DNA of 36,715 nucleotides from a virus. Under the pieces are notes generated by a model. That model ran no database searches. It was given only the letters and a program-made list of their open reading frames with translations, and was not told the DNA's origin. Made by a program: the position numbers and the translations under genes. Positions within the stretch are counted from its first letter, which is position 1; each line of letters begins with the position of its first letter. Positions 22,526 through 36,715 of this stretch are shown in pieces. The DNA is taken from IMG/VR virus record IMGVR_UViG_3300017749_000041, positions 1-36,715 of that record, one strand, 5' to 3'.

Positions 22526-22831
22526 TTAATCTACTAAATACCAGTCTCTCGACATCTCGACAACGTCTGACTCTCCCCTGTCTAGTTGCATAAATCCTTT
22601 GCGAGTGTAGACCCTAGACCATTTATCCGCAAGGGTCAACACGGCATTGAGTCTGCTCTGTGTGGTGCGTGTCTGCCAACCTGCATGACTAATAAACAGC
22701 CTGTTTCCTTCGCGCATGGCTATTGGATTGCCGTGTAAATACAACGTGCCTCCTTCGCTGACTGTGTTGTCTTTACGCGCATCTTCACCGCGCACGAATG
22801 CTCCTACTACTTGCTTTTCTATCTGTCTCAT
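22526..22831 (-). CDS. Early protein (101 aa), hypothetical
   Basis: The protein is basic and beta-rich: 'KQVVGAFVRGEDARKDNTVSEGGTLYLHGNPIAMREGNRLFISHAGWQTRTTQSRLNAVL'. The phrase 'LYLHGNPIA...G..l.IS.AGW.T.TT..RLNal' is a pattern I recall in small phage proteins of unknown function, next to early genes. The start overlaps the preceding stop as ATGA. The stop is 12 bases before the gap containing the inverted repeat. Confidence 0.7.
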   Translation of the reverse strand: MRQIEKQVVGAFVRGEDARKDNTVSEGGTLYLHGNPIAMREGNRLFISHAGWQTRTTQSRLNAVLTLADKWSRVYTRKGFMQLDRGESDVVEMSRDWYLVD

Positions 22832-23115
22832 TTTGCTACCTCCAAAAGTGTGTGATATTCATCTTTTTTGTCTAAATATTTCTCTAACAGGTTAACTGTT
22901 TGCTCGTTCAATTTGCCCTTGTAATCTGGCAGAATAGCATTCTGTGCCTTAAAAATACCCATTGCCTCGTTTTCGTCTCGCTCTGCGATTTTGTTGTAGT
23001 CGTCGCGGTCTTGCTCGTTGTCTGCCTTGACTGCCCATATACGCCATCTCAAAGCCTCAATGTCTGTTTTATACTGCTCCTGTTTGAATCTGTTGTATAA
23101 GTCTAGTTTTCTCAT
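22828..23115 (-). CDS. First leftward early gene: helical charged protein (95 aa)
   Basis: I start this at ATG 23115, preceded by CGGAGGCACACGTT. A GTG 14 codons upstream adds a Thr-rich stretch without a better ribosome site. The protein is helical and highly charged: 'YNRFKQEQYKTDIEALRWRIWAVKADNEQDRDDYNKIAERDENEAMG', then a second helix 'VNLLEKYLDKKDEYHTLLE'. It is the promoter-proximal gene of the leftward cluster and lies just left of the unusual control region. Function unknown. Confidence 0.65.
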   Translation of the reverse strand: MRKLDLYNRFKQEQYKTDIEALRWRIWAVKADNEQDRDDYNKIAERDENEAMGIFKAQNAILPDYKGKLNEQTVNLLEKYLDKKDEYHTLLEVAK

Positions 23116-23196
23116 AACGTGTGCCTCCGTTGGCGTTGTCGTTGTTTGATGGTTCACACCTTGCCAAATGCCTCACCAATGTTCCACCAAAACGAG

Positions 23197-23221
23197 TGAC
23201 CAAAATATACAATCGGGTCAC
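23197..23221. repeat. Dyad TGACC-N14-GGTCAC, left copy
   Basis: The inverted repeat AGTGACC / GGTCACT is perfect over 7 bp (23195-23222) around a 14-base A+T-rich centre. A second element with the same arms and exactly the same 14-base spacing lies at 23614-23638, on the other side of the G+C-rich block. A further half-site (GGTGAC) lies at 23230-23235. Confidence 0.7.
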
Positions 23222-23276
23222 TACCGCTTGGTGACTGGTCTACAGCCTAAAATTATTTTTAGACAAATCTGGATTT

Positions 23277-23522
23277 CCTCGCGTGCGCCCGTGTGTGGCT
23301 GTGCGCGTATGTGTGCGTGTGTGTACGTGTGTGTGCGTAGCGTGTGGGTATGCGTGTGTGCGCGTAGGTACGCCTGTGGGTATCCGCATGGACACACACA
23401 CTCGCGCCCGCAGGTATCCGCAGGTGTACGCAGGTACGCGCCCGTATGTGTACGTGTGTACGCGCGAGGGGGCGGGGGGGCGCGTGGGCGCATGACGCGC
23501 TGTGTGGTATCCCCCTGTACAC
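23277..23522. other. G+C-rich alternating purine-pyrimidine block (Z-DNA/G-tract prone)
   Basis: Bases 23281-23520 contain 158 G+C of 240 (66%), far above the surroundings. Bases 23300-23339 are 40 consecutive alternating purine/pyrimidine bases, mainly GT with GC and one AC step. Further uninterrupted alternating tracts lie at about 23347-23365 and 23445-23466. Only 3 A occur in the first 60 plus-strand bases. Toward the right, G-runs of 5 and 7 followed by GGG (23468-23488) could form a G-quadruplex. Such sequence opens easily under supercoiling and is not coding. Confidence 0.85.
23409..23438 (+). repeat. Three tandem 10-bp repeats, CGCAGGTRYV
   Basis: CGCAGGTATC, CGCAGGTGTA and CGCAGGTACG follow one another without gaps inside the G+C-rich block. 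Related GGTATCCGCA strings occur at about 23377 and 23413. Iterons of this size are seen in replication origins, but three degenerate copies are weak evidence. Confidence 0.6.
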
Positions 23523-23591
23523 AAAAAAAGCTAATATTCAATAAAAAGAATTAACCTTAGTTTGTACTCTAAGTTGTTGATTACCTTAAGT

Positions 23592-23620
23592 ATTCTAATG
23601 GCTGGGATATGTATGACCAA
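23592..23620 (-). promoter_or_regulatory. Possible leftward early promoter
   Basis: Read on the minus strand: -35 TTGGTC (23620-23615), 17-base spacer, -10 TAGAAT (23597-23592). The -10 differs from consensus at one base and the -35 at three. The -10 is followed directly by ATACTTAAG, as at the leftward promoter near 20970. If real, the transcript would read about 475 bases of leader, including the G+C-rich block, before the first early gene. It overlaps the right-hand dyad. Confidence 0.35.
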
Positions 23621-23638
23621 TACAATAAAAAAGGTCAC
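23614..23638. repeat. Dyad TGACC-N14-GGTCAC, right copy
   Basis: Same arms and same 14-base A+T-rich spacing as the copy at 23197-23221. The two spacers share ATACAAT at different offsets, so the arms rather than the centre are conserved. Together the two elements bracket the G+C-rich block at a distance of 417 bp. Confidence 0.7.
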
Positions 23639-23680
23639 GGAAGGGGAACTAAAAAGTTGACTGCGGGTCTAATAAATAAC

Positions 23681-23723
23681 TTGACATTCAGACTAAAGTA
23701 TGCTATAATATGTTTATAGTATA
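23681..23723 (+). promoter_or_regulatory. Strong rightward sigma70 promoter with operator-like dyad (late promoter 1)
   Basis: -35 TTGACA (23681-23686), 17-base spacer, extended -10 TGCTATAAT (TATAAT 23704-23709): a perfect consensus. An inverted repeat TATGCTATAA ... TTATAGTATA (9 of 10 paired) covers the -10 and start site (23700-23723). CTAAAGTAT lies in the spacer. A near-identical arrangement occurs at 28769. It drives the terminase-to-capsid genes with host RNA polymerase. Confidence 0.9.
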
Positions 23724-23737
23724 GAATAATTTAAAGC

Positions 23738-23753
23738 CTTAAGTATACTTAAG
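23738..23753. promoter_or_regulatory. Perfect 16-bp palindrome CTTAAGTATACTTAAG
   Basis: Two head-to-head copies of the CTTAAGTAT motif form a perfect palindrome about 20 bases downstream of the predicted start of late promoter 1. Further copies lie at 23585-23593 and 23804-23812 (the latter just before the ribosome site of the first late gene). This is a classic form for a dimeric repressor site or an early-late switch element. Confidence 0.7.
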
Positions 23754-23831
23754 TAGTGTTTAGTTATTAATCATTAATGTTAAATATAAACGCTATCCTA
23801 AGGATACTTAAGATAACTTAAGGAGAGTCCA

Positions 23832-24230
23832 TTGACTATCGAAACGAATCCTCCGAAAAGGAGGGGGCGACCAAAGAAATCAGACATGGTGTCAAGAAAG
23901 AAAGGTGCTACTGGTTTGTCAAGAGGTAGACCGAAAGGTGATGCCGCTATTATCAACGAGTACAAAGGCAGGATGTTGTCATCCCCTAAGTCTCGTAAAG
24001 TATTAGAATCAATATTCGATGCGGCACTTAACGATGACCATAAGAATCAAGCCGCGGCATGGAAGTTAGTCATGGATAGAATATTACCTACAGCGGTATT
24101 TGAGAATGATGTTGTTAAGGGTGCAGGGAAGTCAGCAATACAGATTAACATTACTGGAGTTGGTGGGGAAACCACGGTGGTGTCAAATAATGAAGATGTC
24201 ATTGACGATGGGGAAATCATAGATGGCTAA
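23832..24230 (+). CDS. Small terminase-like protein with AT-hook motifs
   Basis: The protein has 132 residues. The TTG start at 23832 lies 7 bases after AAGGAGAG. The first in-frame ATG (codon 19) would remove the first AT-hook. Two AT-hook-like motifs, RRGRPKK (about 9-15) and RGRPKGD (about 32-38), suggest DNA minor-groove binding. The middle 'SPKSRKVLESIFDAALNDDHKNQAAAWKLVMDRILP' is helical, as in small terminases. The C-terminus is acidic. It directly precedes endolysin and large terminase genes, so it likely recognises the packaging site. It has no sequence signature strong enough to exclude another DNA-binding role. Confidence 0.65.
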   Translation: MTIETNPPKRRGRPKKSDMVSRKKGATGLSRGRPKGDAAIINEYKGRMLSSPKSRKVLESIFDAALNDDHKNQAAAWKLVMDRILPTAVFENDVVKGAGKSAIQINITGVGGETTVVSNNEDVIDDGEIIDG

Positions 24231-36089: not shown

Positions 36090-36706
36090 GACTATTTTGT
36101 TTACTAATGATGTTGTCAGTAGCTACTTGGGGCAACAACACGCAGGAAGGAAGTCTTAATACTTTCCACGGTGATAATAGTACAACAAATAGCAATAACA
36201 ATACAACGGATACATCAACAAGTAACACATACAATGGTGCAGGAAGTAGTAGTGAAATACCAGTAGGTTCTGCTATCACACCTAGCTATATGTCCAACGG
36301 TATGGACACTTGTCTTAAAGGAACAGGCGGTTCTTTGCAGACAGTAGGAATAGGGTTGTCAAGCGGTAGTTACGAGGTAGACCCTAACTGTGACCGTAGA
36401 CGAGACGCTAAGTTGTTGTCGGACTTAGGAATGAAGGTAGCCGCAGTAGCCCGTATGTGTGAAGCAGTAGAAGTATGGAAGAGTATGTTTTTGTCAGGGA
36501 CACCTTGCCCTATATTGAGTAACGGTAAGTTAGTTGTTGGTAAACGTGCAGTATTAATAATGAAGAGACAACCTGAAATATACATACCTGACTATAAAGA
36601 CAACACCGAATGGTACAACACTATACTAAACATTGGAGGAGAGGACACAGATGAAGAAGATGATATTATCTCTGTTAGTGCTAAGTTCCGTAGCACAAAG
36701 CAGTGA
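36086..36706 (+). CDS. Exported Cys-containing phage protein (206 aa)
   Basis: GTG 36086 overlaps the holin stop (GTGA). The GTG one codon earlier is also possible. Signal peptide 'MRLFCLLMMLSVATWG' then a Ser/Asn/Thr-rich linker (NSTTNSNNNTTDTSTSNTYNGAG). A conserved-looking domain with paired Cys follows: 'MDTCLKG...VDPNCDRRRDAKLLSDLGMKVAAVARMCEAVEVWKSMFLSGTPCPI'. The 'NPxC-R....L...GMK.AAVA.MC....V...M...GTPCP' block occurs in marine phage proteins I recall without function. The acidic C-terminus overlaps the next exported-protein gene across the circle join. Probably acts in the periplasm or on the virion. Confidence 0.78.
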   Translation: MRLFCLLMMLSVATWGNNTQEGSLNTFHGDNSTTNSNNNTTDTSTSNTYNGAGSSSEIPVGSAITPSYMSNGMDTCLKGTGGSLQTVGIGLSSGSYEVDPNCDRRRDAKLLSDLGMKVAAVARMCEAVEVWKSMFLSGTPCPILSNGKLVVGKRAVLIMKRQPEIYIPDYKDNTEWYNTILNIGGEDTDEEDDIISVSAKFRSTKQ

Positions 36707-36715
36707 GTTAGACAA
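36610..36715. repeat. 106-bp terminal direct repeat, right copy
   Basis: Exact copy of bases 1-106. Joining the two ends restores a continuous late operon: the exported-protein gene ending at 36706 overlaps the next gene, whose start at base 42 corresponds to 36651 here. Confidence 0.95.

Follow-up and report, generated by a model that had tools for sequence, protein, structure and literature searches.

A 674-bp intergenic region (23158-23831) separates two divergent gene arms in the window, the term used here for the whole analysed stretch of viral DNA, a record of 36,715 bases ( Table 1 ). The remaining gaps between plausible genes, judged by eye from the ORF list, measure ~170 bp or less, in agreement with the first-pass annotation, which had described this as the only long non-coding region. 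The left arm encodes T7-like replication functions (gp2.5-like SSB, primase-helicase, PolA, Cas4-type exonuclease, endonuclease I and RNR), and the right arm encodes a putative terminase small subunit (TerS), an M15 peptidase, TerL and the portal. No RNA polymerase gene was recognised in the part of the window's proteins that was scanned. An identical 106-bp repeat occurs at both ends of the record (1-106 and 36610-36715). All of the relatives examined (80/80) run contiguously across the junction of these ends, which rules out that they are physical genome ends and marks them as an assembly cut; the record represents a circular assembly that was opened within genes.

TerL and PolA match named phages only at <60% identity, and the capsid protein gives only a distant match. 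The putative TerS has no family match, and a comparison with 50,697 phage records gave none either. Among uncultured contigs, many carry a TerL or a TerS that is up to 94% identical. Also, four contigs with TerL relatives of 67-71% identity (L244-L247) occur in MAGs labelled Sphingobacteriales, Verrucomicrobiales and Flavobacteriales. These are possibly co-binned free phage and the MAGs belong to different phyla, so that host assignment from GTDB was dropped.

Table 1. Features of the intergenic region and its flanking genes (window coordinates).
Feature	Position	Strand	Basis or remark
First gene of leftward (replication) arm	22828..23157	-	No PHROG match
G+C-rich, GT-rich, Z-prone block	23277..23522	no strand	65.9% G+C
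Alternating purine-pyrimidine run, 40 bp	23300..23339	+	Computed
Further alternating purine-pyrimidine run, 19 bp	23348..23366		
Box b, GGTATCCGCATGGACAC	23379..23395	+	Relatives' consensus GGTATCC-N4-GCATACTCAC
Three 10-bp repeats; GCAGGT at 23410, 23420, 23430	23408..23436	+	
Further alternating purine-pyrimidine run, 24 bp	23443..23466		
Conserved G-run GGGGGCGGGGGGG	23468..23480	+	Mean pairwise identity 0.89; G4 motif extends to 23488
Spacer from G-run to TATAC, length fixed, sequence variable	23481..23517	+	Spacing scan, identities
Box c, GGTATCCCCCTGTACACAAAAAAAG, ends in A-run, overlaps 3' part of spacer	23506..23530	+	Identity 0.77
Least stable 300-bp window of genome; candidate unwinding region	23522..23821	no strand	Nearest-neighbour profile
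Perfect sigma-70-type promoter TTGACA-17-TATAAT for right arm	23681..23709	+	Sequence match
Putative terminase small subunit (TerS) gene	23832..24230	+	Name inferred from position before TerL

The intergenic region holds a block whose base composition (A 11, C 26, G 40, T 23%) sets it apart from the rest of the genome, where the mean G+C content is 41.5% (sd 4.2) and the richest 246-bp window reaches 52.4%. Its 40-bp run is a long alternating tract rich in CG/TG steps, as looked for in a Z-DNA-forming element. The longest alternating run elsewhere in the genome is 15 bases, the maximum in 100 dinucleotide shuffles of the genome is 21, and shuffling the block itself yields a run of 40 in only 0.1% of cases. 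The compositional outlier, the three alternating tracts, the three 10-bp repeats and the G-quadruplex-capable run, all listed in the first-pass annotation, were thus recovered by computation, the last (23468-23488) being the only G-quadruplex motif in the entire window. Open reading frames in the block are mechanical only and are not credible genes, because the distance between its boxes b and c does not keep the frame among related GT-rich loci (139 bp in the window versus 147 bp in a relative; 135 and 126 bp in others). No known RNA family or tRNA was found.

Other repeats flank it. An inverted repeat, AGTGACC...GGTCACT, occurs at 23195-23222, left of the block and near the start of the leftward gene, and similar GTGAC/GTCAC pairs are present in relatives. 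In the TerS leader, CTTAAG-containing palindromes are repeated at 23584-23828 (e.g. CCTTAAGTATACTTAAGTA and TACTTAAGATAACTTAAGG); relatives have them too, and they are possible operators.

Comparison with dozens of uncultured relatives revealed a common order of landmarks, namely box b (GGTATCC...GCATACTCAC), the G-run, box c (GTAYCC...GTATACAAAAAAG) and then A+T-rich DNA. The core consists of the G-run GGGG(G)NCGGGGGGG, ~37 variable bases and the box ending in GTATACAAAAAAG. When the whole collection was scanned with the pattern GGGGACGGGGG-N(20-50)-ATACAAAAAAG, which allows 31 spacings, 34 contigs matched, related ones whose matches are not independent, and the gap (from match lengths) was 40 in 33 of the 34 and 39 in the other. 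Across 81 elements the A-run box lies mostly 36-39 bases downstream of the G-run. In the 45 elements whose distance is 37, pairwise identity averages 0.89 in the G-run, falls to 0.44 over the first 21 spacer bases and rises to 0.77 in box c. This fixed spacing across a diverged spacer points to a core that acts as a single rigid functional unit. The G-run is on the + strand in nearly all elements; it is missing or on the other strand in L079, L070, L031 and L118, and in L079 (613-632) a C-run occupies the same place on the + strand. Boxes b and c are similar to each other and near-palindromic. Box c was also considered as a leftward sigma-70 -10 element and rejected, no consistent -35 having been found by eye.

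Immediately upstream of this core, the relatives differ in a slot of exchangeable content. A DnaA box with at most one mismatch lies within 20 bp upstream of the G-run in 30 of 77 distinct elements. These boxes are often arrayed in 11-bp steps, 11-16 bp from the G-run, and in whole genomes they cluster at this region and are nearly absent elsewhere. A -35-like sequence, located 26-40 bp upstream and pointing into the G-run, was counted in 19/77 elements, most of them with the form TTGACA-N14-TGN-TARANR; the -35 search pattern was chosen after the sequences were seen, which makes the count descriptive only. Of the exact TTGACA hits on the + strand of the region, 16/19 fall 71-90 bp before box c. 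The two modules never occur together (0/77), an exclusion supported by a Fisher test (2e-5) in which the elements are treated as unrelated, and 28/77 have neither. On the TerS tree, a weak one built from a short protein, the upstream module label needs at least 26 changes; independently of that tree, phages with identical TerS carry different upstream modules.

The window has neither an exact DnaA box in the region nor a TTGACA in the slot, which is filled instead by GC-rich/GT-rich alternating DNA. Such DNA fills the slot throughout its class, consisting of the window, L002, L093, L107, L163, L014 and L251, in which alternation is 0.67-0.85 versus about 0.50 in shuffled sequence, and several members carry GCAGGT repeats at 10-bp intervals. 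On the left side of the core, the window is 83-89% identical to L160-L163 versus 33-45% to other close relatives, and the A+T-rich right side is 76-82% identical in all of them, a contrast that marks the left half of the region as a swapped haplotype. Similar blocks occur on contigs from other metagenomes (L002, the same as L160; L093, the same as L161; L107, the same as L162; L163; and also L014, L095 and L251), which rules out an assembly chimera or insertion and absence from relatives, the two outcomes under which the block would have been dismissed. The Z-prone block is real and recurrent. Composition and alternation are kept where sequence has diverged: in L014 the GT part is 50% identical to that of the window and its alternation is 0.83. 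Outside the class the block is poorly conserved (31-50% identity in L086, L092, L083 and L101).

The core also lies at a step in duplex stability: in the nearest-neighbour profile, the genome's most stable 50 bp, starting at 23453, abut its least stable 300 bp. Cumulative GC skew reaches its minimum near 23.25 kb, a position confounded with the change of gene direction there, and is no more than compatible with an origin.

Taken together, we consider it somewhat better than an even chance (roughly 0.55) that the block is the upstream half of a replication origin, made of a G-run/A-run core with interchangeable openers. This reading is favored by the rigid spacing found in an open scan despite the diverged spacer, by the position of the core between divergent replication and packaging arms, by the clustering and phasing of DnaA boxes beside the G-run, by the mutually exclusive DnaA box and promoter in one slot, swapped at identical TerS, by the stability step, and by T7-like replication genes accompanied by no recognised RNA polymerase. 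Against it, the slot of the window contains no exact DnaA box and no TTGACA, about a third of the elements (28/77) have neither module, the G-run is missing or reversed in some relatives, DnaA-trios are absent, and TGTGGATAA arrays likewise occur near genome ends of T7-like phages. Such arrays were seen near a packaging gene of Escherichia phage P483 (L248:1500-1630), at the start of Klebsiella phage Kp7 (L249:60-225) and next to a microvirus replication gene (L250:495-560), so a DnaA box alone is no proof of an origin. Of the four roles proposed in the first-pass annotation, unwinding element of an origin is the best supported, although the conserved part is the G-run/A-run core and not the Z-prone DNA. 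A role as structured early-RNA leader finds no support, given the leftward promoter-like sequences seen by eye left of the block in relatives and the perfect rightward promoter ~160 bp to its right, and a plain transcription or supercoiling barrier would leave the DnaA boxes or promoter in the same slot of relatives unexplained.

In the proposed mechanism, the upstream slot would open or prime the core. Rightward transcription of the G-run would leave the new RNA paired with the C-rich strand as an R-loop, possibly stabilised by a G-quadruplex, and the 3' end of this RNA near the A-run could then be extended by the phage family-A polymerase. With the promoter in this orientation, the G-run falls on the non-template strand, a requirement of R-loops. 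Since no RNA polymerase gene was recognised in the window, host RNA polymerase would have to supply transcription at the core. In members with DnaA boxes, host DnaA may open the region; in the window class, an initiator may bind the repeats of the block, or a supercoil-driven B-to-Z transition may ease opening. The block could thus act through topology (Z-DNA), through initiator binding at its repeats, or have no role. The more specific proposal, a family of origins with a constant core and swapped openers in which the window class uses GT-rich Z-prone DNA in place of host DnaA or host RNA polymerase, by topological opening or by a new initiator on the 10-bp repeats, is advanced as a doubtful extension.

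Several other explanations bear on the same observations. The GT-rich block itself might be functionless, a product of slippage and expansion of short alternating sequences beside a functional core. Short alternating runs are common at this region among relatives and could expand, and the block is poorly conserved outside the class (31-50%, as above); however, alternation and composition persist in L014 while sequence diverges, and the block occupies the slot held elsewhere by DnaA boxes or a promoter. We regard this as somewhat unlikely; a functionless block would be compatible with a core that is still an origin. Alternatively, the region may be a regulatory hub, with boxes b and c as operators of a phage regulator, DnaA boxes or promoter controlling transcription, and the G-run acting on RNA polymerase through pausing at the start or through 5' RNA structure. 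The divergent arrangement, the similar and near-palindromic boxes and the TTGACA-type sequences aimed into the G-run (19/77, a descriptive count) all fit a hub. Yet the perfect promoter at 23681 already serves the right arm, and neither the replacement of a promoter by DnaA boxes in one slot nor the adjoining stability step is easily explained, which makes the hub account unlikely.

A packaging or terminal signal, with the core at or near a pac site or terminal-repeat boundary read by the adjacent terminase and the arrays being counterparts of the short repeats arrayed close to the ends of T7-like genomes, would agree with the adjoining terminase genes and with the TGTGGATAA arrays near genome ends or a packaging gene in the Autographiviridae Kp7 and P483. 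Nevertheless, contig ends do not clearly accumulate here (a weak argument), no role in packaging is obvious for the DnaA-box and promoter modules, and the modules vary at identical TerS, which would be odd for a TerS recognition site, although the core itself is constant. We consider this account quite improbable.

If the origin reading is correct, these phages would provide a natural series of origins with one core and a swapped opening mechanism (DnaA boxes, promoter or GT-rich block), the opener being exchanged at times between phages that share one packaging protein. Two questions would then become open to experiment: how replication begins in lytic-type phages that have T7-like replication genes but in which no RNA polymerase is recognised, and whether an initiator site can be replaced by Z-prone DNA. 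Also, G-run priming would reach beyond the plasmid and the mitochondria from which it is known, to a widespread group of uncultured phages.

Literature searches on DnaA boxes in podoviruses, on G-quadruplexes at phage-genome origins and on Z-DNA at phage origins yielded no relevant report. Comparison was made with characterised systems. Phage T7 initiates with its own RNA polymerase and is not known to have a G-run core. Its primary origin has an A+T-rich segment (PMC12839067). Like T7, the window encodes a T7-like polymerase, primase-helicase, SSB and endonuclease I and has an A+T-rich segment at the candidate origin; unlike T7, it has no recognised RNA polymerase gene and does not classify as a T7-type primary origin. 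Many relatives share with the basal unwinding system of bacterial oriC phased TGTGGATAA arrays beside a G+C-rich stretch. In contrast to oriC, DnaA-trios, taken as at least three trios within 16 nt of the box (PMC8287927) and sought on the downstream side on either strand, are absent from all 28 loci in which a box adjoins the G-run; the window, lacking a DnaA box, does not classify with oriC. P483 and Kp7 have the same 9-mer arrayed near packaging genes or the genome end, but no G-run/A-run core at this spacing was seen by eye in those two regions.

In ColE1, R-loop formation and initiation both require a G-rich stretch that lies upstream of the origin (PMC6317783), and in both ColE1 and mitochondrial OriH such a stretch retains an R-loop from which the primer is processed, the G-quadruplex-stabilised R-loop of OriH priming a family-A polymerase (PMC6317783, PMC4357710). 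Unlike ColE1, the phages have no RNA II/RNA I-like genes, and in other members the promoter gives way to DnaA boxes or GT-rich DNA; unlike OriH/CSB II, no POLRMT-like polymerase was recognised in the phage, and the R-loop is a candidate one. As is sought in an R-loop origin, a conserved G-rich stretch (identity 0.89, + strand nearly throughout) lies on the non-template strand. A TTGACA-type -35 placed so that transcription would cross it occurs in 19/77 elements, the window not among them (descriptive count). Next to the G-rich stretch of ColE1 stands, in the phages, a G-run set at a fixed distance ahead of an A-run box, and one class has a promoter-like sequence upstream of it; as in OriH/CSB II, the G-run is interrupted by one base. 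In its logic, the core would resemble those of ColE1 and mitochondrial OriH.
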